Assembly (NCBI GenBank): GCA_030628225.1
Contig: DAOVRJ010000004.1
Location: forward strand, 1-22,252
Reading direction: 5' to 3'
DNA from: Candidatus Zixiibacteriota bacterium
GTDB taxonomy: Bacteria > SM23-81
Length of the DNA stretch: 22,252 bases
Shown here: positions 7,318 through 18,756 of the stretch, piece by piece
How positions within the stretch are numbered: the first letter of the stretch is position 1
How the letters are laid out: each line of letters starts with the position of its first letter
Made by a program: the position numbers and the translations under genes
Notes under the pieces: generated by a model
The model's database searches: none
What the model was told of the DNA's origin: nothing
What the model saw: the letters and a program-made list of their open reading frames with translations, nothing else

Positions 7318-7710
7318 TTGAATTGTCCACTGTGCAAAGAGCCATTGGTCGTTTTGGAGCTTGATGAGGTGGAAATAGACTACTGTACCTCCTGTGAGGG
7401 TATTTGGTTTGATGCCGGAGAGCTGGAGCTTTTATTGGAGGACTCTGCTGAAAAGGATCATTTTCTATCTTCTCTTGAGGTAGACAGAACCGCTAAAGAG
7501 AAAGCTCGAAAATGTCCTATCTGCTCAAAGAGGATGGAAAAGGTTTGCCCTGTATCAGACATGAGGTTTCATATAGATAGATGCCGCCGGAATGATGGCA
7601 TCTGGCTGGATGGAGGTGAGCTTGAGCAGATCGTTCGGATGACGGGTTTTGGCAAAGATCACCGGGTTTTACGTCTGCTCAAAGATATGTTCGCCAGGAA
7701 AACACAATGA
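7318..7710 (+). CDS. Double TFIIB-type zinc-ribbon protein
   Basis: A 130-residue protein made of two zf-TFIIB-like ribbons. The first is CPLCKEPL...[21 protein letters not shown] and the second is [11 protein letters not shown]...[21 protein letters not shown]. Both keep the CxxC...C..C/R-x-GxWxDxGEL pattern; in the second the last Cys pair is CRRND, so one ligand is missing. Ribbons of this type are common in small bacterial proteins of unknown function, often linked to membrane or protease genes. The start is TTG 7318 with GAGGAG six bases upstream. The lemA-like gene follows after 16 bases, so these two are probably co-transcribed, with the M48 protease next. Confidence 0.85.
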
Positions 7711-7726
7711 TGAAAGGAGGGTGAAG

Positions 7727-8284
7727 ATGATAATTCTACTGATACCTTTAATAGTTATCGCGATCCTTTTCGTGGTCTTTATCGGAATATACAACTCTCT
7801 GGTACGACTGAGAAACCGGGTGAAAAATGCCTGGTCGCAGATCGACGTTCAATTGAAAAGGCGACACGACCTGATCCCGAATTTGGTGGAAACCGCCAAG
7901 GGATACATGAAACACGAAAAGGAGACCTTAGAGAATATCACACAGGCAAGAAGCCGGGCTATGGGTGCTGGAAGCGTCGGCGAGAGGTCGAAAGCCGAGG
8001 GCACCTTGAGCGGTGCCATCAGCAAGTTTTTCGTCGTCGTGGAGAATTATCCTGACTTGAAGGCGAATCAGAACTTTCTGTCATTACAGGAAGAATTGAC
8101 CTCCACTGAGAACAGAATAGGGTTTGCCCGGCAGAGCTATAACGATCAGGTGTTGTTCTTCAACAACAAGATCCAGATGTTTCCTTCAAGCATAGTTGCC
8201 GGGATGTTCAGCTTTACGGTAGAGGAGTTTTTTGAGATAGAAGAGGCCGGAGAAAGGGAAGTGCCGAAAGTCGATTTTTCGTGA
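7727..8284 (+). CDS. lemA: LemA family membrane protein
   Basis: A 185-residue LemA protein. Residues about 2-22 form the N-terminal membrane helix ([20 protein letters not shown]). The signature follows: [40 protein letters not shown], then the helical bundle with [17 protein letters not shown] and [14 protein letters not shown], ending with [10 protein letters not shown]. This matches the family in full. LemA proteins have a long extracytoplasmic helical domain and are often encoded beside HtpX or TPM-domain proteins, as here. The start is ATG 7727 with AAGGAGGGTGA just upstream; a longer in-frame start inside the previous gene (ATG 7649) is not needed. The M48 protease gene begins 104 bases downstream. 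Confidence 0.92.
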
Positions 8285-8388
8285 TGGATGATGGGAAAGC
8301 CCGTTTATCTGTCCGTTGATGGGCAGAGGTGAATCTGTTGTCAACGCGCGAGCTCAGCGGGGGATTGAGGAGTTGAAGCCAGAGAGCC

Positions 8389-9840
8389 ATGTGGGAGCTA
8401 ATACGAAAAAATAAAAGAAAATCGCTGATTCTTTTTATATTTATGGGGATTTGCCTTGTTCTGTTGGGCTATTTCGTCGGCGCTGTCTTCTTCCCTCCCG
8501 ATGGGGGCGTTGCCGGTATTTTCATCGCCCTGGGCGCATGGTTTTTCATGTCGCTGATCAGTTATTTTACCGGCGACTCGATTATACTGGCCACCAGCAA
8601 CGCGCAGGAAGTTTCTCATGATGTCCATCCACAGCTGTTTAACATTGTAGAGGAGATGAAGATCGCGGCCAATTTACCTGTTATGCCAAAGGTGTATGTT
8701 ATTGACGAAGCGGCGCCCAATGCATTTGCCACGGGCACAAGACCGGAAAAAAGTGCTGTTGCGGTGACTGCTGGACTGCTTTCCCGGCTTAACAGAGATG
8801 AGCTACAGGGGGTGATTGCCCACGAGATGTCTCACATCGCCAATCGGGATGTGCTATTTATGACCTTTGCCGGGATCTTGCTGGGGAGTATAGTGCTCAT
8901 CTCCGAGGTGTTTTTAAGAAGCATGTGGTTTTCCTCCAGATCATCGAAAAGGTATCGTGCCGGCAAGAAAGTGGCCGGAGGGCAGGCTCAGCTGATCATC
9001 ACCGCTGTCGCAATTGCTCTTGCCATATTAGCTCCTATAGTAACGCGGCTGCTTTATTTCGCCATATCAAGAAAAAGGGAATATCTGGCCGATGCGTCCG
9101 CTGTCAGACTGACGAGATATCCACAAGGCCTGGCTTCTGCTCTGGAGAAGATCTCGGCGGTAAAATTAGATCTTCCTTCGGCCAACAAGGTCACGGCTCC
9201 CATGTATATCATCAATCCTCTTAAAAAGAAAGGCGCCCGACTGTTAAATCTCACCAGCACCCATCCTCCTATCTACGAGAGAATTGGAATCCTGCGCAGT
9301 ATGATATACAGGGCTAATTTTCTCGATTATCAAAAAGCCTATTCGCGGGTCAAGGGGGAATCGTCCGTGATTATCCCGGCATCAGGATTGCGACAAACCG
9401 AGGTGATCCCGGTGCGGAAAGCGTCTATGGAGAAAGGGGTGGGAGAGACAGGGAAAAAGAAGGGAGTCAGAGAGCTGGTGGACTTGATGCGGGCGGTCAA
9501 CAAATACGCTTTTTTGATCTGTGCCTGCGGGCTTAAGATAAAAGTGCCCCCGGATTTCAAGAAATCCAAGATATCCTGTCCCCGGTGCGGGCGGGAAGTT
9601 GAGGTTCCGCTTGCTGAACTGGCGGCCCTCACTGCAGCAGCGGGGGCCGTGACGGCGGGAAAAGACGAGAAAAAAGATGAGCAGATCTCGGCACGCAGCC
9701 AACAGGTCTATATGAGAAAAGGAAAGGGCTGGGAGAGCTTTTCTTGCTCTTGTGGCAGATTGCTGCAGATCTCCCCGGCCTTTCGCGGCTCACATATTGT
9801 TTGTAGCACATGTGGAAGAAGGACCGTGATTAAAAGTTAG
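8389..9840 (+). CDS. HtpX-like M48 metalloprotease with two C-terminal zinc-ribbon modules
   Basis: A 483-residue membrane zinc protease of the M48B (HtpX) type. Two helices lie near residues 13-33 and 39-62. The zinc site is HEMSH (His145, Glu146, His149) with the third ligand Glu231 in SRKREYLADASAV. Two further helices surround residues 160-180 and 200-226. The peptidase part ends near 310 (STHPPIYERIGILRSM). The remaining ~170 residues are unusual: a linker with CACGLKIKVPPDFKKSKISC-PRCG (about 383-405), then a second CSCGRLLQISPAFRGSHIVC-STCG (about 450-474). Each is a four-Cys ribbon of similar layout (CxCG...CxxCG). HtpX normally ends shortly after the peptidase domain, so this is an extension. 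It lies downstream of a double zinc-ribbon gene and lemA, suggesting a membrane-protein quality-control set. Confidence 0.9.
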   Translation: MWELIRKNKRKSLILFIFMGICLVLLGYFVGAVFFPPDGGVAGIFIALGAWFFMSLISYFTGDSIILATSNAQEVSHDVHPQLFNIVEEMKIAANLPVMPKVYVIDEAAPNAFATGTRPEKSAVAVTAGLLSRLNRDELQGVIAHEMSHIANRDVLFMTFAGILLGSIVLISEVFLRSMWFSSRSSKRYRAGKKVAGGQAQLIITAVAIALAILAPIVTRLLYFAISRKREYLADASAVRLTRYPQGLASALEKISAVKLDLPSANKVTAPMYIINPLKKKGARLLNLTSTHPPIYERIGILRSMIYRANFLDYQKAYSRVKGESSVIIPASGLRQTEVIPVRKASMEKGVGETGKKKGVRELVDLMRAVNKYAFLICACGLKIKVPPDFKKSKISCPRCGREVEVPLAELAALTAAAGAVTAGKDEKKDEQISARSQQVYMRKGKGWESFSCSCGRLLQISPAFRGSHIVCSTCGRRTVIKS

Positions 9841-9952
9841 GGACACGATCTTCACTTTGATATCTCGTGCTGCCAAAAGAGACCGGATCGATGAGATGAA
9901 TGCACAAGCGGGGATGTAGATCAAGGAAGATATTAAATGAAAGGGGTGAAAT

Positions 9953-12223
9953 ATGAAAAGGGCCTTGGTGGGAATGTCCGCGACAGTCCTTTTGTTTGTC
10001 TGTAGTTATGGGACAGTAAATGCTCAGTCATTGCATTTTAGCATTGAAAGGGTAGAGGAGTTTAGTGGCACATCCAACACGAGATTGTTGATTCATCCGG
10101 CAAACCACGATCTAATTGCCTATAATGGTGATTTTGCCTTTCGCTCTTCAGACCAGGGTGTTGATTGGGAACTGGACACGTTATTAAATTTGCCTGGAGA
10201 TGGGGCACTGCGCATTTCACCGGCAGATCCTAGCATTGTTTATGGTGGCAGATTTTCACCTTTGCAACGCAGCAATGATGGCGGTTGTACCTTTACTGAA
10301 ACCGCTCCCTTTCCCGAAGGTAGTGGCTTGCATGTATGGGATATTGCGATACATCCGAACGATCCAAGTATTCTTTATGTCGGTCTGGACTTAACCCTTG
10401 TTAAATCAGAAGATTATGGCGTCACTTGGACAGATTTGCCTTCAACGGCAAGCGGATTGCCCACGGCAACACTATATAAGAAGCTCTTTATCGATCCTGA
10501 TACTCCTTCTCGCGTCTTTGTGGGGACAGAAAGCGGCGGTCTTTACAGAACAATAGATGATGGTTCAAGCTGGTCCTATTGTGGCCCGGGATATTCCGTG
10601 GGGAATTTGCGTGATTTCCATTGGATTCCGAACGGAGATACCGTCTATCAGATTGAAAATGATGGGATTTATCGATCTGATAATGGAGGTGATACCTGGA
10701 TATGCACGGACACCCTTTCTGCGGGGAATTTTCATGTAATCGGTGTGAAAGCAGATGATGCCGAAGTGGTTTTTTATGTTAGCTCTAACGGTAGTGGTAC
10801 TTATCAGCTCTATCGTTCAATAGATGGTGGCAGTACTTTCACCGATGTTCACACATTTGACAGTTATATCAGTGATTTTGAGTTTGGCTGTGGTTCACAA
10901 TACATGTTCTTCACTGATCCCGATGATTCAGACGTCATGTATTTAGCCGCCGCGTTTGGCATACAGTGGATGAGCTTCATGTTTAAGAGCACCGATGCCG
11001 GAGTCTCATGGGAGTACATGAAAGATGGAATTTACAATTTCAATATCAATGATATCTGCATCGCAAACACAGGTCTGCTCTTGAGTTTCGAAGAGAATTA
11101 CGTTTATTATAATGTCTTGGACATGAGCACTTCCGCGGTTCATACTTATCGGGTAGTAGAATCCAATTGGCCCACAGGCAGGGTAGTGCAAGATCCGAAC
11201 AACCCAGATTATATCTGGTATACCAATATCAGAGGAATGACCAGGATCACCAACAATGGGGCTACAATGACCCCGATACATCAGCCGGGCGATGCTGGAA
11301 CAGCAGTGGAAGCATTGGATGTAAATGGCTCAACACATATTTATTATGCAACTTACGGTCTTTCGAAAGCCCCAGTTCTGTACAAAAGCACAGATGGCCT
11401 CTTATTCAACCCAGTGAATATTCCCGCTAATAGCTCAACGATTACAGCGATATTGGCAGATCGAACGGATACCGACAAGATTATCATGGCAACCGACGGC
11501 AATGGGTATTTTATAACCATAAACGGAGCTGTTGATTGGGCACATTATACAAATCCTGGAACAATCAATGATATGGCTATGGATGCAACTGATAATTACA
11601 TTATTTACTTCGCTGCCTGCGATGCTCTCTATAAAAGTGTTGATGGAGGGGAAACTGCGGTACAGATAGGTAGTTTTCATGCAGATTGCATCGTGATAGA
11701 CCCCGAGGATCATAATACTATTTACGTATCTTCGGGCTCGCACATCTTCTATTCTCTTGATGGAGGCATGACATGGTCTGTATTTGAATTATTGCCGGGT
11801 TTTGAAAGAAATCTCGGTAGATTGATATTAGAATTTGATCCCAATAATCCAGACCATTTATATGTAGCTTCACAATTCTATGGTTTATTCCTGGTAACAG
11901 CAACTCCTGTAGGAGTGGATGATAAAGCCGAGAATTCGGTACCTGCCGGGTTCTCTCTTTTCCAGAACTATCCGAATCCCTTTAATCCAACGACAGCGAT
12001 ACGATACGAATTGCTAAAAGATGCCAAGGTGGCTCTCAAGATCTACAATATGCTTGGTCAGGAAGTAAGGACATTAGTCGATGAAGAGCAAATTGCTGGC
12101 TGCCGGTCAGCAACATGGGATGGGAAAAATAATGTCGGTCAGGATGTGAGCTCGGGAATTTACATCTGCAAACTTAAAACGCCTGACTTAGTAGAGACGA
12201 AGAAGCTTTTGTTGATCAGATGA
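9953..12223 (+). CDS. Secreted Asp-box (BNR/VPS10-like) beta-propeller protein with T9SS sorting domain
   Basis: A 756-residue protein with a Sec signal peptide (residues 1-25, ending VNAQS). The body (about 30-650) carries roughly nine Asp-box motifs of the S-x-D-x-G-x-(T/S)-W/F type, for example SSDQGVDW, SNDGGCTF, SEDYGVTW, TIDDGSSW, SDNGGDTW, SIDGGSTF, STDAGVSW, SVDGGETA and SLDGGMTW. This indicates one or more sialidase/VPS10-like propellers; no catalytic residues can be assigned. Residues about 660-756 form a type A T9SS sorting domain: GFSLFQNYPNPFNPTTAIRY, VALKIYNMLGQEVRTLV, SGIYICKL and KKLLLIR. The protein should be exported to the periplasm, carried through a type IX system, and anchored or released at the surface. 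It is relatively AT-rich and stands alone. GGGGTGA lies five bases before ATG 9953. Confidence 0.92.
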   Translation: MKRALVGMSATVLLFVCSYGTVNAQSLHFSIERVEEFSGTSNTRLLIHPANHDLIAYNGDFAFRSSDQGVDWELDTLLNLPGDGALRISPADPSIVYGGRFSPLQRSNDGGCTFTETAPFPEGSGLHVWDIAIHPNDPSILYVGLDLTLVKSEDYGVTWTDLPSTASGLPTATLYKKLFIDPDTPSRVFVGTESGGLYRTIDDGSSWSYCGPGYSVGNLRDFHWIPNGDTVYQIENDGIYRSDNGGDTWICTDTLSAGNFHVIGVKADDAEVVFYVSSNGSGTYQLYRSIDGGSTFTDVHTFDSYISDFEFGCGSQYMFFTDPDDSDVMYLAAAFGIQWMSFMFKSTDAGVSWEYMKDGIYNFNINDICIANTGLLLSFEENYVYYNVLDMSTSAVHTYRVVESNWPTGRVVQDPNNPDYIWYTNIRGMTRITNNGATMTPIHQPGDAGTAVEALDVNGSTHIYYATYGLSKAPVLYKSTDGLLFNPVNIPANSSTITAILADRTDTDKIIMATDGNGYFITINGAVDWAHYTNPGTINDMAMDATDNYIIYFAACDALYKSVDGGETAVQIGSFHADCIVIDPEDHNTIYVSSGSHIFYSLDGGMTWSVFELLPGFERNLGRLILEFDPNNPDHLYVASQFYGLFLVTATPVGVDDKAENSVPAGFSLFQNYPNPFNPTTAIRYELLKDAKVALKIYNMLGQEVRTLVDEEQIAGCRSATWDGKNNVGQDVSSGIYICKLKTPDLVETKKLLLIR

Positions 12224-14406: not shown

Positions 14407-15891
14407 ATGTCTACAAGCAGAGTAGATCGCAAATTTATGAAGCTTGCCATCGAGGAGATGTCGGGGTCGCGCTCCGAGCATTCTCATAAGGCTGATCCTC
14501 TAGTAGGAGCTGTTCTTGTTAGTGCAAAAGGTAATGAGTTGGCTCAAGCTGGTAGGGGAAGTCTTCGAGTTGGGAATCACGCCGAATATCTCGTCATTGA
14601 AAGATTATCAGGCGATAAAAATCTCGAGGGTTCGACACTTTATATTACCCTTGAACCTTGCACCAGCCGAGGAGAAGGGAAAAAGCCTTGCGTTGAATGG
14701 ATTGTGAAAGCCCGTATAGGACGCGTTGTAATTGGCATACCGGATCCTAATCCAGAGATCCATGGGCACGGAATAACGTATCTGCTTGATCAGAACGTAG
14801 ATGTTGACTTCTTTGATCAAGATCTGAGAGAGCAAATCCGGCGTGAGAACCAAGATTTTATCGATCATTACATGGATTTGAGCGAAGAAAAGCAATTGCA
14901 AGAGGAATTTGAAGGTTCCTCAGAACGAGAGCAAGAGCCTGTCTTAAGTGCGACTGTGGATGATTTCTCATGGGATGCTATTCAAGAGTACATTGATATT
15001 CGTGGTAAACACTTTAGCAAGCCATCGCCTGAGCTGTGGAGCTTCTTTCATAAAAACGGTTTCCTATCTATTCATCCCAAAAGACGTACATACGTCCCCA
15101 CCATAGCCGGTCTTTTACTCTTTGGAGAGAGTCCTGAAGACTTCCTAGTTCAAAGTAAGCTCAAGTTAGAAGCGGAGATCGGAGGAAAGCTTATCCTTGA
15201 AGATGTTGCGGGACCACTTCCTTGCTTGCCTGAAAAGATAGAAGAGTTTTTCAGCAAGAATATGAGGACTTATACTGAAATTAAGGGTTTTAAGAGAGAA
15301 GCAGTTACTGAATATCCTTTGGAGGCGTTGCGAGAGGCCGTAATAAATGCTATTGTTCACAGGGATTATACAGCAGGAGCTCGGGTGCTCATTCAAATGA
15401 CTCCTAAAAGTATTATCATTAAAAGCCCTGGATATCTCCTTCGACCATTGACTCTTGATCAAATCCGGAAATGCGATGCGCCTCCTTATAGTAGGAATCC
15501 TCGGATTGCTGAGACATTTAATATGATGAATCTGATGGAAGAGAGGGGGCGTGGTTTAAAGAACATGCGCGATCTGCTTGTAAAACATGGACTCAGACCA
15601 CCAAGATTTGATTATGAAAGCGGATATTTTGTTGTGACCTTCTTTGGACAAGAACTTGCTCCAGGGGTCATTCGGATTCCATCAGAGTTAATGGCCAAAC
15701 TTAACAATCGCCAGCAGGAATTAATCGATTTAGTACGTAATCGAGGAAGAATTACCAGTGCTGAATGTGCCGAGAGATTTAAAGTAAGCATAGATACTGC
15801 AAAGCGGGATTTAAAGAAACTTGTGGAGCTTGGCATATTAGAAAAAAGAGGTCTCGGTCCAGCTACATTTTATGCTTTAATCGGTGCATAA
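14407..15891 (+). CDS. Deaminase-GHKL ATPase-winged helix fusion (RecG-like/AlbA_2-type regulator with AlbA_2 replaced by a CDA/RibD-like deaminase)
   Basis: A 494-residue cytoplasmic multidomain protein. Residues 8-130 are a zinc-dependent deaminase of the RibD/CDA superfamily: DPLVGAVLVS, the HAE motif (His58-Ala-Glu60), TLYITLEPC (Cys85) and KPC (Cys95), so all three zinc ligands and the catalytic Glu are present. A charged linker (about 140-180) follows. Residues about 180-410 match the C-terminal half of RecG-like/AlbA_2 regulators: TIAGLLLFGESP, then the HATPase_c_4 signature YPLEALREAVINAIVHRDY (303-321, N-box Glu310/Asn314) and ERGRGLKNM. Residues about 433-490 are a DeoR-like winged helix (GRITSAECAERFKVS, TAKRDLKKLVELGIL). 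The usual N-terminal AlbA_2 (Schlafen-like) domain is absent. The start is ATG 14407 with AGGAG 11 bases upstream. A role in nucleotide-linked regulation or defence is inference. Its stop codon is formed by the second unit of an 11-bp tandem repeat. Confidence 0.88.
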   Translation: MSTSRVDRKFMKLAIEEMSGSRSEHSHKADPLVGAVLVSAKGNELAQAGRGSLRVGNHAEYLVIERLSGDKNLEGSTLYITLEPCTSRGEGKKPCVEWIVKARIGRVVIGIPDPNPEIHGHGITYLLDQNVDVDFFDQDLREQIRRENQDFIDHYMDLSEEKQLQEEFEGSSEREQEPVLSATVDDFSWDAIQEYIDIRGKHFSKPSPELWSFFHKNGFLSIHPKRRTYVPTIAGLLLFGESPEDFLVQSKLKLEAEIGGKLILEDVAGPLPCLPEKIEEFFSKNMRTYTEIKGFKREAVTEYPLEALREAVINAIVHRDYTAGARVLIQMTPKSIIIKSPGYLLRPLTLDQIRKCDAPPYSRNPRIAETFNMMNLMEERGRGLKNMRDLLVKHGLRPPRFDYESGYFVVTFFGQELAPGVIRIPSELMAKLNNRQQELIDLVRNRGRITSAECAERFKVSIDTAKRDLKKLVELGILEKRGLGPATFYALIGA

Positions 15892-15975
15892 TCGGTGCAT
15901 AATCGGTGCATGACCGGATATAATCGGTGCATAATCGGGTCATAATTGGGACATAATTGGGACATCACTCGGACA
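15878..15975 (+). repeat. 11-bp tandem repeat overlapping the 3' end of the deaminase fusion gene
   Basis: Nine adjoining units: TAATCGGTGCA at 15878, 15889, 15900 and 15921; a 10-bp variant TGACCGGATA at 15911; TAATCGGGTCA at 15932; TAATTGGGACA at 15943 and 15954; and TCACTCGGACA at 15965. The first unit encodes the last residues (IGA) and the TAA stop is the first triplet of unit 2. Units diverge gradually from left to right. The period is not a multiple of three. Confidence 0.92.
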
Positions 15976-16209
15976 GAATCGTTGAAGGATCATGGGGAAA
16001 AATGTAATAAGCATGGTAATAACCCAGCGGTGATCGTTGGACTGCTGAACGGATTCTGCACTTAATTGTCCATCAGCGAGCGTAGATTTAATGTGGTGGT
16101 GATGGTGCTGATGGGGTGAGGTAAGGATGACAGCAATTGCTTACATTACGATCTGCTTTGTTTTCCGTTCCTCTTGACAAATTTCCCCTTTCACTCTCCC
16201 CTTTCCCAT
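15976..16209 (+). other. Non-coding stretch before the promoter
   Basis: No convincing gene, RNA or repeat is seen here. It contains a short low-complexity run (GTGGTGGTGATGGTGCTGATGG near 16093) and a second TTGACA near 16173 without a matching -10 box. A frame opening at ATG 16137 has no ribosome site and runs out of frame through the protease remnant, so it is not called. Confidence 0.5.
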
Positions 16210-16266: not shown

Positions 16267-16644
16267 CAGCTCTTCGGCCTTGTTCTCCTCTCCTGCTCCC
16301 GGCCGCCAGCGCCATCAGGTCCAGAGCCCTCTCGGTTTCCGGTGCTCGAAGAATCGATTCCGGCAGAAGAGTATGTCGATCTGAACACGGTTCTGATGGA
16401 GTCGACTTTTCGGCTTCAAGGTGTCACGGCGCAAGATTCAGTGCTCATTGGAACGGTGTTCATCTTTGATATCCCATGTCAGGGGTGTCCGAGCAAAGTA
16501 ATTCTGGTTGCCTCCGCTCATCTGCTGGACAGTATGGTAACCGACCGGGCGTTGTTGAGTCTCAGGAATAAGAAATGGGATGGGAGATGGGAGGAGCACC
16601 CGTGGTGGATTGAGGTCTGCCACGATGGAAGGCAGACATTATGA
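16267..16644 (+). pseudogene. Trypsin-like lipoprotein remnant, copy 1 (N-terminal part only)
   Basis: This is closely related in DNA and protein to the gene after the arylsulfotransferase. The frame from 16267 reads QLFGLVLLSCSRPPAP (a lipobox-like LLSC), then EEYVDLNTVLMESTFRLQG, DSVLIGTVFIFD, VILVASAHLLDSM (the trypsin-like His region) and EEHPWWIEV, then stops at TGA 16642-16644. It lacks a start codon: TAA 16264-16266 closes the frame, and the only nearby ATG (16257) is in another frame. The whole second half, including the catalytic Ser region, is also missing. It is transcribed in principle from the consensus promoter just upstream. Confidence 0.75.
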
Positions 16645-16711: not shown

Positions 16712-18034
16712 ATGAAAGCACCCGGTAGCCAATATGGATTTGTGATATCGCTTTTGTTTGGTCTCATGCTCCTGTTCGTTTCGACGGATGTGTCAGCGCA
16801 GCAGGCTGATTCTTTACAGACGCGGGATTGGGAGAGACAGCTGGAAAGACTGCTTGCCGTACCTTATGTTGGGCTCTCGGAGACGGAGGTGGATGAGCGG
16901 GACACGAGCGTCACTCGTTATCGAGAGGACAAGAGTTATTACGGTTATAACTTCTATTGCACCCGAGGTTCGAGCAAAGCGACGTTGATGGATATGAATG
17001 GTCATGTGGTGCATCAGTGGTGTTTTGACTTCGATGAGGAGAAGTGCCATTGTAAACTGGCCATTTTATTGGACAAGGGCGATCTGTTCGGGATTTCGAA
17101 CAACAAGAAGGTGTTCTTACTGAACTGGGACTCGGAGCTTATCTGGGAGAAGCAGCTTCGAGCCCATCATGATATGTCGCAGGCTTCCGATGGCTCATTT
17201 TTTGTTCTCACGCGGGAGATGAAAGAACACCGTGGTTCGAAGGTCATATTTGATAACATTATACATTTGTCACCGGACGGAGAGGTGCTGGACCAGTGGT
17301 CTTCTTATGATCACTTAGAGGAGTTCGGGGAAAAGCTGGATACGCGATCGTTTTTAGATGTGATACTGGATAGCATCGACGCTGGTCAATCACAGGAAGA
17401 CGGAGATAAGAAGCCAATTTCAAAAGACATAAAGAGTGTACGTATCGACAATCCTTTAAGAGACTTGGATTATTTTCACATGAACACCATGCATTTGCTT
17501 CCTGCCACAGAGCTGGGAGAGCGAGATTCGCGATTTCGCGAGGGTAACTTGCTGGTTTGCTTTCGCAACGTAAATCAAATTGCTGTTTTAGAAAGGGACA
17601 CGTATCGCGTCCTGTGGGCTTGGGGTGAAGGTGAACTTCAGTGGCCTCATGATCCGACGATGTTGGACAATGGCCACATCTTGATTTTTGACAATGGGAT
17701 CGAACGCCAATATTCCAGGATCCTGGAGCTCGATCCAGAAACAGAGACCATCGCATGGGAGTATACCGATAAACCGCCAGAGAATTTTTATTCCCCCAAG
17801 CAGGGTTCGGCCCAGAGGCTGCCCAATGGAAACACGCTGATATGTGCAAGTGGAAATGGTCGTGTTTTTGAGGTAGATCCAACGGGTAGAAAGGTGTGGG
17901 TGTGGTCAAACCCTGACACACACCGAAACCATCCGGAAATCATTTTCAGGATGAGGCGCTTGCCCCCAGCTTTTGTCGACAGGCTGCTTGATAAGGCCGA
18001 GGATCTGAAACATAGTATCAACGAGCAGAGGTGA
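16712..18034 (+). CDS. Arylsulfotransferase (ASST) family exported protein
   Basis: A 440-residue protein with a Sec signal peptide (residues 1-30, LLFGLMLLFVSTDVSAQQ). The mature part shows the beta-propeller of ASST-family proteins: YNFYCTRGSSKATLMDMNGH, VVHQWCF, LLDKGDLFGIS, LRAHHDMSQASDGSFFVL, DYFHMNTMHLLP (the conserved His region), LLVCFRNVNQIAVLE, VLWAWGEGELQWPHDPTMLD, NGHILIFDNG, ERQYSRILELDPETE, and LPNGNTLICASGNGRVFEVD near the end. Bacterial ASSTs move sulfate between phenols in the periplasm. Many FCB-type relatives of this kind are of unknown substrate, so activity is uncertain. It starts at ATG 16712 with GGAG eight or nine bases upstream. It is flanked on both sides by decayed copies of a trypsin-like lipoprotein gene. 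Confidence 0.82.
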   Translation: MKAPGSQYGFVISLLFGLMLLFVSTDVSAQQADSLQTRDWERQLERLLAVPYVGLSETEVDERDTSVTRYREDKSYYGYNFYCTRGSSKATLMDMNGHVVHQWCFDFDEEKCHCKLAILLDKGDLFGISNNKKVFLLNWDSELIWEKQLRAHHDMSQASDGSFFVLTREMKEHRGSKVIFDNIIHLSPDGEVLDQWSSYDHLEEFGEKLDTRSFLDVILDSIDAGQSQEDGDKKPISKDIKSVRIDNPLRDLDYFHMNTMHLLPATELGERDSRFREGNLLVCFRNVNQIAVLERDTYRVLWAWGEGELQWPHDPTMLDNGHILIFDNGIERQYSRILELDPETETIAWEYTDKPPENFYSPKQGSAQRLPNGNTLICASGNGRVFEVDPTGRKVWVWSNPDTHRNHPEIIFRMRRLPPAFVDRLLDKAEDLKHSINEQR

Positions 18035-18063
18035 TGTGCCTCCGCGGTTCGTATGGCTATGCA

Positions 18064-18756
18064 ATGGGACGAATCCATGACAGTGTGCTCTGGCCCTCGG
18101 TGATTCTGCTCTTTTTCACTCTTCCCCTCTGCTGCTGTTCAAGGCCGCCAGCGCCGGGGCCTGAGCCCTCTCGATTCCCGGTGGTCGAAGCCACGGTTCC
18201 GGCGGAAGAGTATGTCGATCTGAACGCGGTTCTGATGGAGTCGACTTTTCGGCTTCAAGGTATCACAGTGCAAGATTCAGTGCTCATTGGAACGGTGTTC
18301 ATCTTTGATCTACCATGTCAGGGCGATCCAGATAAGGTGGTGTTAGTCACTTCCCACCATTTCTTGGACAGCTTACGAGGTGACCGGGCGCTGCTTGGTC
18401 TCAGAAGAAAGGCGGTCGATGGAACATGGGCAGAACACCCTTGGTGGATAGAGATTCGCCGCCATATGCGTCCCGCTACCAGATTTCACGGAGATACCGC
18501 TACGCTCTATCGAATTGTTGGCCGATGAGGGAACCTTCCAGAAATACGAGATTCACCCAGGGGATGAGCTGATGTGTCTGGGGTATTCATCGGTGAACGG
18601 GGTACACGGCCGCGGAGGGTTTCCCATATTGCCGGACTGCTCAGCAAACAGTGGTTCGCAGACAAGGATGAGAAACAGCCCCTGAAGGTGGCGGAGGTGG
18701 TTCACGCTCACTTCATCGGGGAAACCGTTAATAAACTGCTGCCAGAGAATCGTTAA
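18064..18756 (+). pseudogene. Trypsin-like serine protease lipoprotein, copy 2, broken by frameshifts and deletions
   Basis: Frame 1 from ATG 18064 gives a lipoprotein signal (VILLFFTLPLCCCS), EEYVDLNAVLMESTFRLQG, DSVLIGTVFIFD, VVLVTSHHFLDSL (trypsin-like His region) and EEHPWWIEIR-like AEHPWWIEIR. Near 18458 the homology moves to another frame: AAICVPLPDFTEIPL, IELLADEGTFQKYEIHPGDE, LMCLGYS and GGFPIL. Near 18627 it moves again: HIAGLLSKQWFADKDEKQPL and [20 protein letters not shown], to TAA 18754-18756. The expected GNSGGP segment with the catalytic Ser is absent, as is the stretch around the first frame change. So at least two deletion/frameshift events have killed the gene. Copy 1 upstream keeps the DGRQTL segment that copy 2 lacks, so the two decayed independently. 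Confidence 0.78.

Follow-up and report, generated by a model that had tools for sequence, protein, structure and literature searches.

What is the role of a RibD-like deaminase that is joined to a GHKL-type ATPase and a winged helix? The question is raised by P0001, an uninterrupted 494-aa ORF that occupies exactly positions 14407..15891 on the forward strand of the window, that is, the whole 22,252-nt stretch analyzed from Candidatus Zixiibacteriota (GCA_030628225.1, contig DAOVRJ010000004.1). A sequence-only reading had described the protein as a deaminase (HAE and PC...PC motifs) joined to HATPase_c_4 and a winged helix, with the deaminase in place of the usual AlbA_2 domain. It had considered a RibD biosynthetic role unlikely and an antiviral role possible. 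The features of the gene are listed below.

14407..15891, + strand: whole gene of P0001, deaminase - HATPase_c_4 - winged helix (ORF, Pfam and predicted structure)
14407..14871, + strand: RibD-like Zn-dependent deaminase domain, residues 1-155 (Pfam dCMP_cyt_deam_1; TIGR00326; RibG fold match)
14578..14586, + strand: H58-A-E60, first Zn ligand and catalytic glutamate (H58 and E60 in 83/83 aligned members)
14656..14691, + strand: P84-C85-x9-C95, predicted Zn cysteines (P84, C85 and C95 in 83/83 members; RibD-type long spacing)
14872..15306, + strand: linker and pre-ATPase alpha/beta region, residues 156-300, common to AlbA_2-type relatives (3lmm_A alignment)
15319..15642, + strand: GHKL-type ATPase, HATPase_c_4 (Pfam 324-412; motifs)
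15706..15879, + strand: C-terminal winged helix, residues 434-491 (Pfam HTH_DeoR; helices and strands in the model)

Domain architecture of P0001

Pfam searches found all three domains of the proposed fusion above their cut-offs: dCMP_cyt_deam_1 at residues 6-110 (54.4 bits, cut-off 25), HATPase_c_4 at residues 324-412 (68.6 bits, cut-off 26) and HTH_DeoR at residues 435-480 (38.6 bits, cut-off 21). What had been read as the second 'PC' of the deaminase is C95. The ATPase part carries an N-box (R309-E310...N314...H318-R319-D320-Y321), S340-P341-G342, R363-N364-P365 and E378...G383. These motif residues (N-box, SPG, RNP, E378/G383) are kept in ~72-80 of 84 alignment rows and the remainder are mostly gaps. 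ATP binding is predicted for this domain, and the winged helix is a putative DNA-binding element. SLFN_AlbA_2 (Pfam) is absent from P0001 and from the members of family alignment A5. PADLOC 2.0.0 gave 14 matches to P0001, restricted to the ATPase half and the helix-turn-helix (top match Aga_SIR2-PNTD over 130-393), and not one was confined to the deaminase region; none of its deaminase models of known defense systems matched the protein.

In the predicted structure (m115ef65bd4b8; mean pLDDT 83.8, pTM 0.62), residues 156-494 match DIP2311 (3lmm_A) with Z 21.3 and 304 residues aligned, and the rmsd of 9.4 Å indicates that the domains are placed differently. We take DIP2311 (3LMM) to be an AlbA_2-family protein. 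A related C-terminus, matched by three family members, is named 'Transcriptional regulator DIP2311-like' in Pfam. The AlbA_2-HATPase_c_4-HTH protein of locus L085 aligns to P0001 solely over 276-493 (ATPase and winged helix), and with AlbA-type scaffold proteins in other genomes the alignment starts at about residue 158-182 or later. Since the fold matches are to 3lmm on one side and RibD on the other, and the sequence alignments start at ~158-182 or later, the model and the alignments indicate that the scaffold is common to both groups and that the N-terminal domain is exchanged (AlbA_2 versus RibD-lineage deaminase), as had been proposed. At L085, in one Kiritimatiellae genome, two paralogues adjoin each other, an AlbA_2-HATPase-HTH gene (7502-8890) and a deaminase-HATPase-HTH gene (9686-11595).

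PMC12839542 describes a protein with Schlafen RNase, minimal histidine kinase and wHTH parts that accompanies BREX in at least 1017 taxa. The deaminase version is not named in that description, and no description of a deaminase-HATPase_c_4-wHTH architecture was found in the literature searched, a search to which the 2011 deaminase survey (PMC3239186) did not belong. The P0001 family is like the Schlafen/AlbA_2-HATPase_c_4-wHTH effectors in having the same ATPase and winged-helix scaffold and the same accessory placement by RM/BREX-type systems, and unlike them in carrying a RibD-lineage deaminase in place of the N-terminal AlbA_2 nuclease. On the best reading, effectors of the Schlafen-scaffold ATPase-wHTH kind are known and the variant with a deaminase as N-terminal domain is new.

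Lineage of the deaminase domain

Profile searches with the deaminase domain gave RibD first and TadA next. The closest fold to model residues 5-160 is B. subtilis RibG (Z 21.9, rmsd 2.1 over 146 aa, 31% identity), compared with Z ~16 each for TadA and yeast cytosine deaminase. P0001 shares with RibD/RibG the deaminase fold, the HAE motif, the PC...C motif with long cysteine spacing and D113 of the DPNP motif. The residues between the Zn cysteines number 9-11 in the family, 8 in RibD and 2 in TadA. Unlike RibD/RibG, P0001 lacks a reductase domain, lies outside riboflavin loci and falls under the RibD equivalog cut-off: TIGR00326 (NCBIfam RibD) scored 70.1 bits against a cut-off of 156.35 and only profile positions 1-134 of 343 were covered. 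At the asparagine positions of the RibD NP and DPNP motifs the family mostly has S and D, and this sequence change suggests a substrate other than that of RibD. P0001 also shows a weak match above the cut-off to Inv-AAD (AID/APOBEC-like; 34.5 bits, cut-off 26.5), a profile matched by 56/56 members at E<=0.001.

In the deaminase-domain tree, RibD is set apart from the family (97/85) and the branch joining the family has values of 87/97; long branches meet in this tree, so the separation is moderately firm only. P0001 is sister to L030 (92/94). The pair falls outside the main clade of 80, and the branch in which P0001 lies is divergent and sparsely sampled. Three PDB entries titled 3-dehydroquinate dehydratase I (8dq9, 8dqb and 8dqc) match RibD in sequence and fold; the title looks wrong.

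Distribution and genomic neighborhood of the family

Beyond its own phylum, P0001 has full-length relatives at five loci, spread over four genomes; the search identities are 45, 37, 34, 34 and 32%, the alignment identities 31-43%. Patterns made from deaminase pieces without the EPC motif were scanned against 85,000 genome species and gave 437 stretches, of which 382 were confirmed as encoding. Among the best 80 of these 382 loci, 71 are near-complete single-ORF fusions: the ORF matches a six-member model across both deaminase and ATPase and, in most cases, also across the winged helix; in seven further loci of the best 80 the ORF is broken or cut off at contig ends. A chance fusion or assembly chimera is ruled out by the full-length architecture at the five other loci and by dCMP_cyt_deam_1 and HATPase_c_4 both being matched in 56/56 members of alignment A5. 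The sequence-only reading had named loss of the active site in most members as evidence against itself. The site is intact: H58, E60, P84, C85 and C95 are kept in every one of the 83 aligned members.

The family spans more than 20 bacterial phyla and the archaeon Methanolobus. Its presence is patchy, with 1/10, 1/3 and 2/395 genomes in three phyla (each count includes the seed genome). Scans of genome contigs and viral contigs with P0001 gave no match, and no family member was found in plasmids or in E. coli, the latter searched by DNA-level blastn. A Methylobacterium plasmid match (H17, query residues 7-255) was rejected as an ordinary RibD in a rib operon. No further close relatives of P0001 were found in its own phylum, which comprises four genomes, or in 395 genomes of a larger phylum, where the seed and one other main-branch-type member were found.

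Several members deviate from the common form. The product of L069:9860-11752 has an insert of ~120 aa between deaminase and ATPase, and that of L049:6043-8292 has ~260 extra residues ahead of the deaminase, possibly from a wrong start; neither addition has a Pfam match. L041:7857-8774 encodes a deaminase of the same subfamily that stands alone and ends in a different C-terminus; it is found near an AAA_21 gene on a prophage-like contig, where terminase-like and portal-like genes were read from the ORFs to the left and an integrase-like gene to the right. P2-like phages are hotspots of defense genes (PMC9122126). Identical or near-identical deaminase domains occur across species or phyla, in L119 and L121 (Methanolobus) and in L071 (Kaiserbacteria) with L072 (Bacteroidota), which suggests either recent transfer or a binning error.

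The P0001 gene stands alone, as the sequence-only reading had noted. It is flanked by genes for a DUF3795 protein and an arylsulfotransferase-like protein, and no defense genes were found around it within the 22-kb window. In the source genome there is no match to HSDR_N (HsdR) and no second copy of P0001 was found. The GC content of the gene is 43.2% (third positions 36%) against a window mean of 50.6%; this AT-richness is compatible with acquisition and is no proof of it. About seven 11-bp repeats (TAATCGGTGCA ... CATAATTGGGA) lie at window positions 15878-15981, and the array overlaps the last codons and the stop of the gene. The tested repeat pattern has no second occurrence elsewhere in the source genome. 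The array is possibly an insertion-sequence end or a set of protein-binding sites. Just downstream, a 300-nt direct duplication (77% identical) covers 16318-16617 and 18157-18456, and its first unit repeats part of the gene at 18031-18528.

Neighborhoods were counted at 78 loci with a central ORF. RM or related defense genes lie within 5 kb in 34/78 loci; 23 of these have type I RM subunits and 20 have the defense gene directly adjacent. The other 44 loci have no neighbor in the limited set of defense classes used, and many of the contigs are short. The density of labeled defense matches is 0.22 per kb at 0-1 kb, drops to 0.03 per kb at 5-7.5 kb and reaches 0 at 7.5-10 kb, and 74/74 of the matches are on the same strand as the deaminase gene versus 476/707 neighbors overall. 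The neighbor HMMs were seeded from the neighbors themselves; the trends with distance and strand, together with the PADLOC scan, remove this bias only in part. An independent PADLOC and Pfam scan of the nearest neighbors found REase_I, Specificity_I, MTase_I, HerA, GmrSD and YhcG. HsdR is present within 5 kb in 15/78 loci, compared with ~0.2% estimated for a random gene from the HSDR_N base rate (47/145 genomes, mostly single copy).

Family genes are located inside or at the edge of type I RM operons in L053, L061, L108, L109 and L120. The gene order is hsdM-hsdS-deaminase gene-(one gene)-hsdR in L053 (Methanolobus), hsdM-hsdS-deaminase gene-hsdR in L108 and hsdR-hsdS-deaminase gene-hsdM in L109. 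Among the deep relatives of P0001, L030 is next to an MNT/HEPN pair and L031 next to an SfiI-type RM pair; L033 is flanked by AbiE and an RM-like gene. Riboflavin genes (RibE, RibH, RibD-reductase relatives) are absent from the 800 neighbor proteins, and the source genome has a separate RibD (L002) adjoining RibE. Riboflavin biosynthesis is rejected on the basis of the sub-cut-off TIGR00326 score together with the lack of riboflavin neighbors, in line with the earlier expectation for P0001.

Candidate functions and implications

We favor, at a rough probability of 0.55, the reading that the P0001 family consists of widespread, horizontally moving accessory defense effectors in which a RibD-lineage Zn deaminase replaces the nuclease of the Schlafen/AlbA_2 scaffold, the ATPase and winged helix serving to switch on a nucleotide deaminase. 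The conserved fusion, the invariant active site, the RM/defense neighbors and the patchiness count for a defense role, as do the RM-adjacent deep relatives (L030, L031 and L033), the prophage-like L041, the sister Schlafen effectors with BREX and the prrC-like operon position of some members. On the other side, the P0001 gene is solitary in a genome without HSDR_N, and absence from plasmids and E. coli is unusual for a mobile defense gene. Mechanistically, we propose that the deaminase is held quiet in uninfected cells by the GHKL-type ATPase and the winged helix. These would sense an infection cue, either phage or damaged DNA or, by analogy with PrrC/EcoprrI, a linked type I RM enzyme being inhibited. 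The deaminase would be exposed on ATP binding or hydrolysis and would then act on a nucleotide, most likely a pyrimidine nucleotide. The deamination may block the replication of the phage and would probably sacrifice the cell.

A defense role could also be fulfilled on nucleic acid, with the deaminase targeting cytosine or adenine in phage DNA, mRNA or tRNA and the winged helix or ATPase aiding its loading. The presence of a winged helix, the RNase relationship of AlbA_2 (the usual partner of the scaffold), the Inv-AAD match and the resemblance of the model to TadA are in keeping with such a target, but fold and profile are nearest to RibD, whose substrate is a free nucleotide-like pyrimidine, and we regard this alternative as rather unlikely. 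With the two defense readings taken jointly, a place of the family in defense is quite probable. We are somewhat less sure for P0001 itself, which is divergent and solitary. The suggestion of an antiviral function draws support from the strong RM/defense linkage of the family, and none from the window, in which the P0001 gene has no adjacent defense gene.

The pairing of a catalytic domain with a winged helix would fit a metabolite-responsive regulator equally well, which counts against the defense reading. The deaminase domain would bind or convert a pyrimidine metabolite and signal through the ATPase to the winged helix, and any role in defense would consist in the control of neighboring RM genes. 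The DeoR-like winged helix, the Pfam name of the related C-terminus, the frequent co-orientation with RM operons and the repeat array at the 3' end of the P0001 gene agree with it. Yet the strictly kept catalytic residues would be needless for pure ligand sensing, the family gene is often within the operon, and the diversity of the linked systems (type I, GmrSD, HerA, ResIII, AbiE, SfiI) argues against one fixed regulon; regulation seems improbable as the main function. A metabolic enzyme, either a paralogous RibD or a pyrimidine-salvage deaminase with a regulatory tail, is very unlikely, since RibD is the nearest enzyme family in profile and fold but the score is under its cut-off, the reductase domain is missing, the genome already has its own RibD, riboflavin genes do not neighbor the family and the distribution is patchy.

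The preferred reading, a switched nucleotide deaminase in defense, can be compared with known antiviral systems. RdrB and Cad1, both adenosine deaminases, differ from P0001 in fold. AvcD, RADAR RdrB and Cad1 give precedent for antiviral deaminase effectors, including nucleotide conversion (PMC10511110, PMC9994260, PMC11645235), and those that act on nucleotides have other folds or settings (PMC10511110, PMC11645235); AvcD is one half of an RNA-antitoxin pair, unlike P0001. The prrC gene is embedded in the EcoprrI operon (PMC3874165), and some family members are similarly within or bordering an hsdM-hsdS-x-hsdR operon (L053, L108 and L061). PrrC differs in being an anticodon nuclease of a different fold, and the P0001 gene is without an RM partner. 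An anti-restriction protein sets off PARIS (PMC9122126).

A more specific and tentative proposal is a PrrC-like fail-safe. A linked restriction system would keep a latent nucleotide deaminase silent, and a solitary member would be silenced by its own ATPase/wHTH part. The deaminase would be freed when a phage defeats restriction, and infection would be stopped by poisoning of the nucleotide pool. If this proposal is true, the family would be a deaminase branch of the Schlafen-scaffold immune effectors, common to bacteria and archaea. For the defense reading in general, the invariant active site and the single ~500-aa polypeptide mean that one gene and a pair of point mutants suffice for a direct test, and the members within type I RM operons could show whether the guarding of latent effectors is common among restriction systems. 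On that reading, the RibD-lineage deaminase would join the small set of antiviral deaminases, and the ATPase/winged-helix scaffold of the accessory Schlafen RNases would be a general switch with exchangeable effectors.
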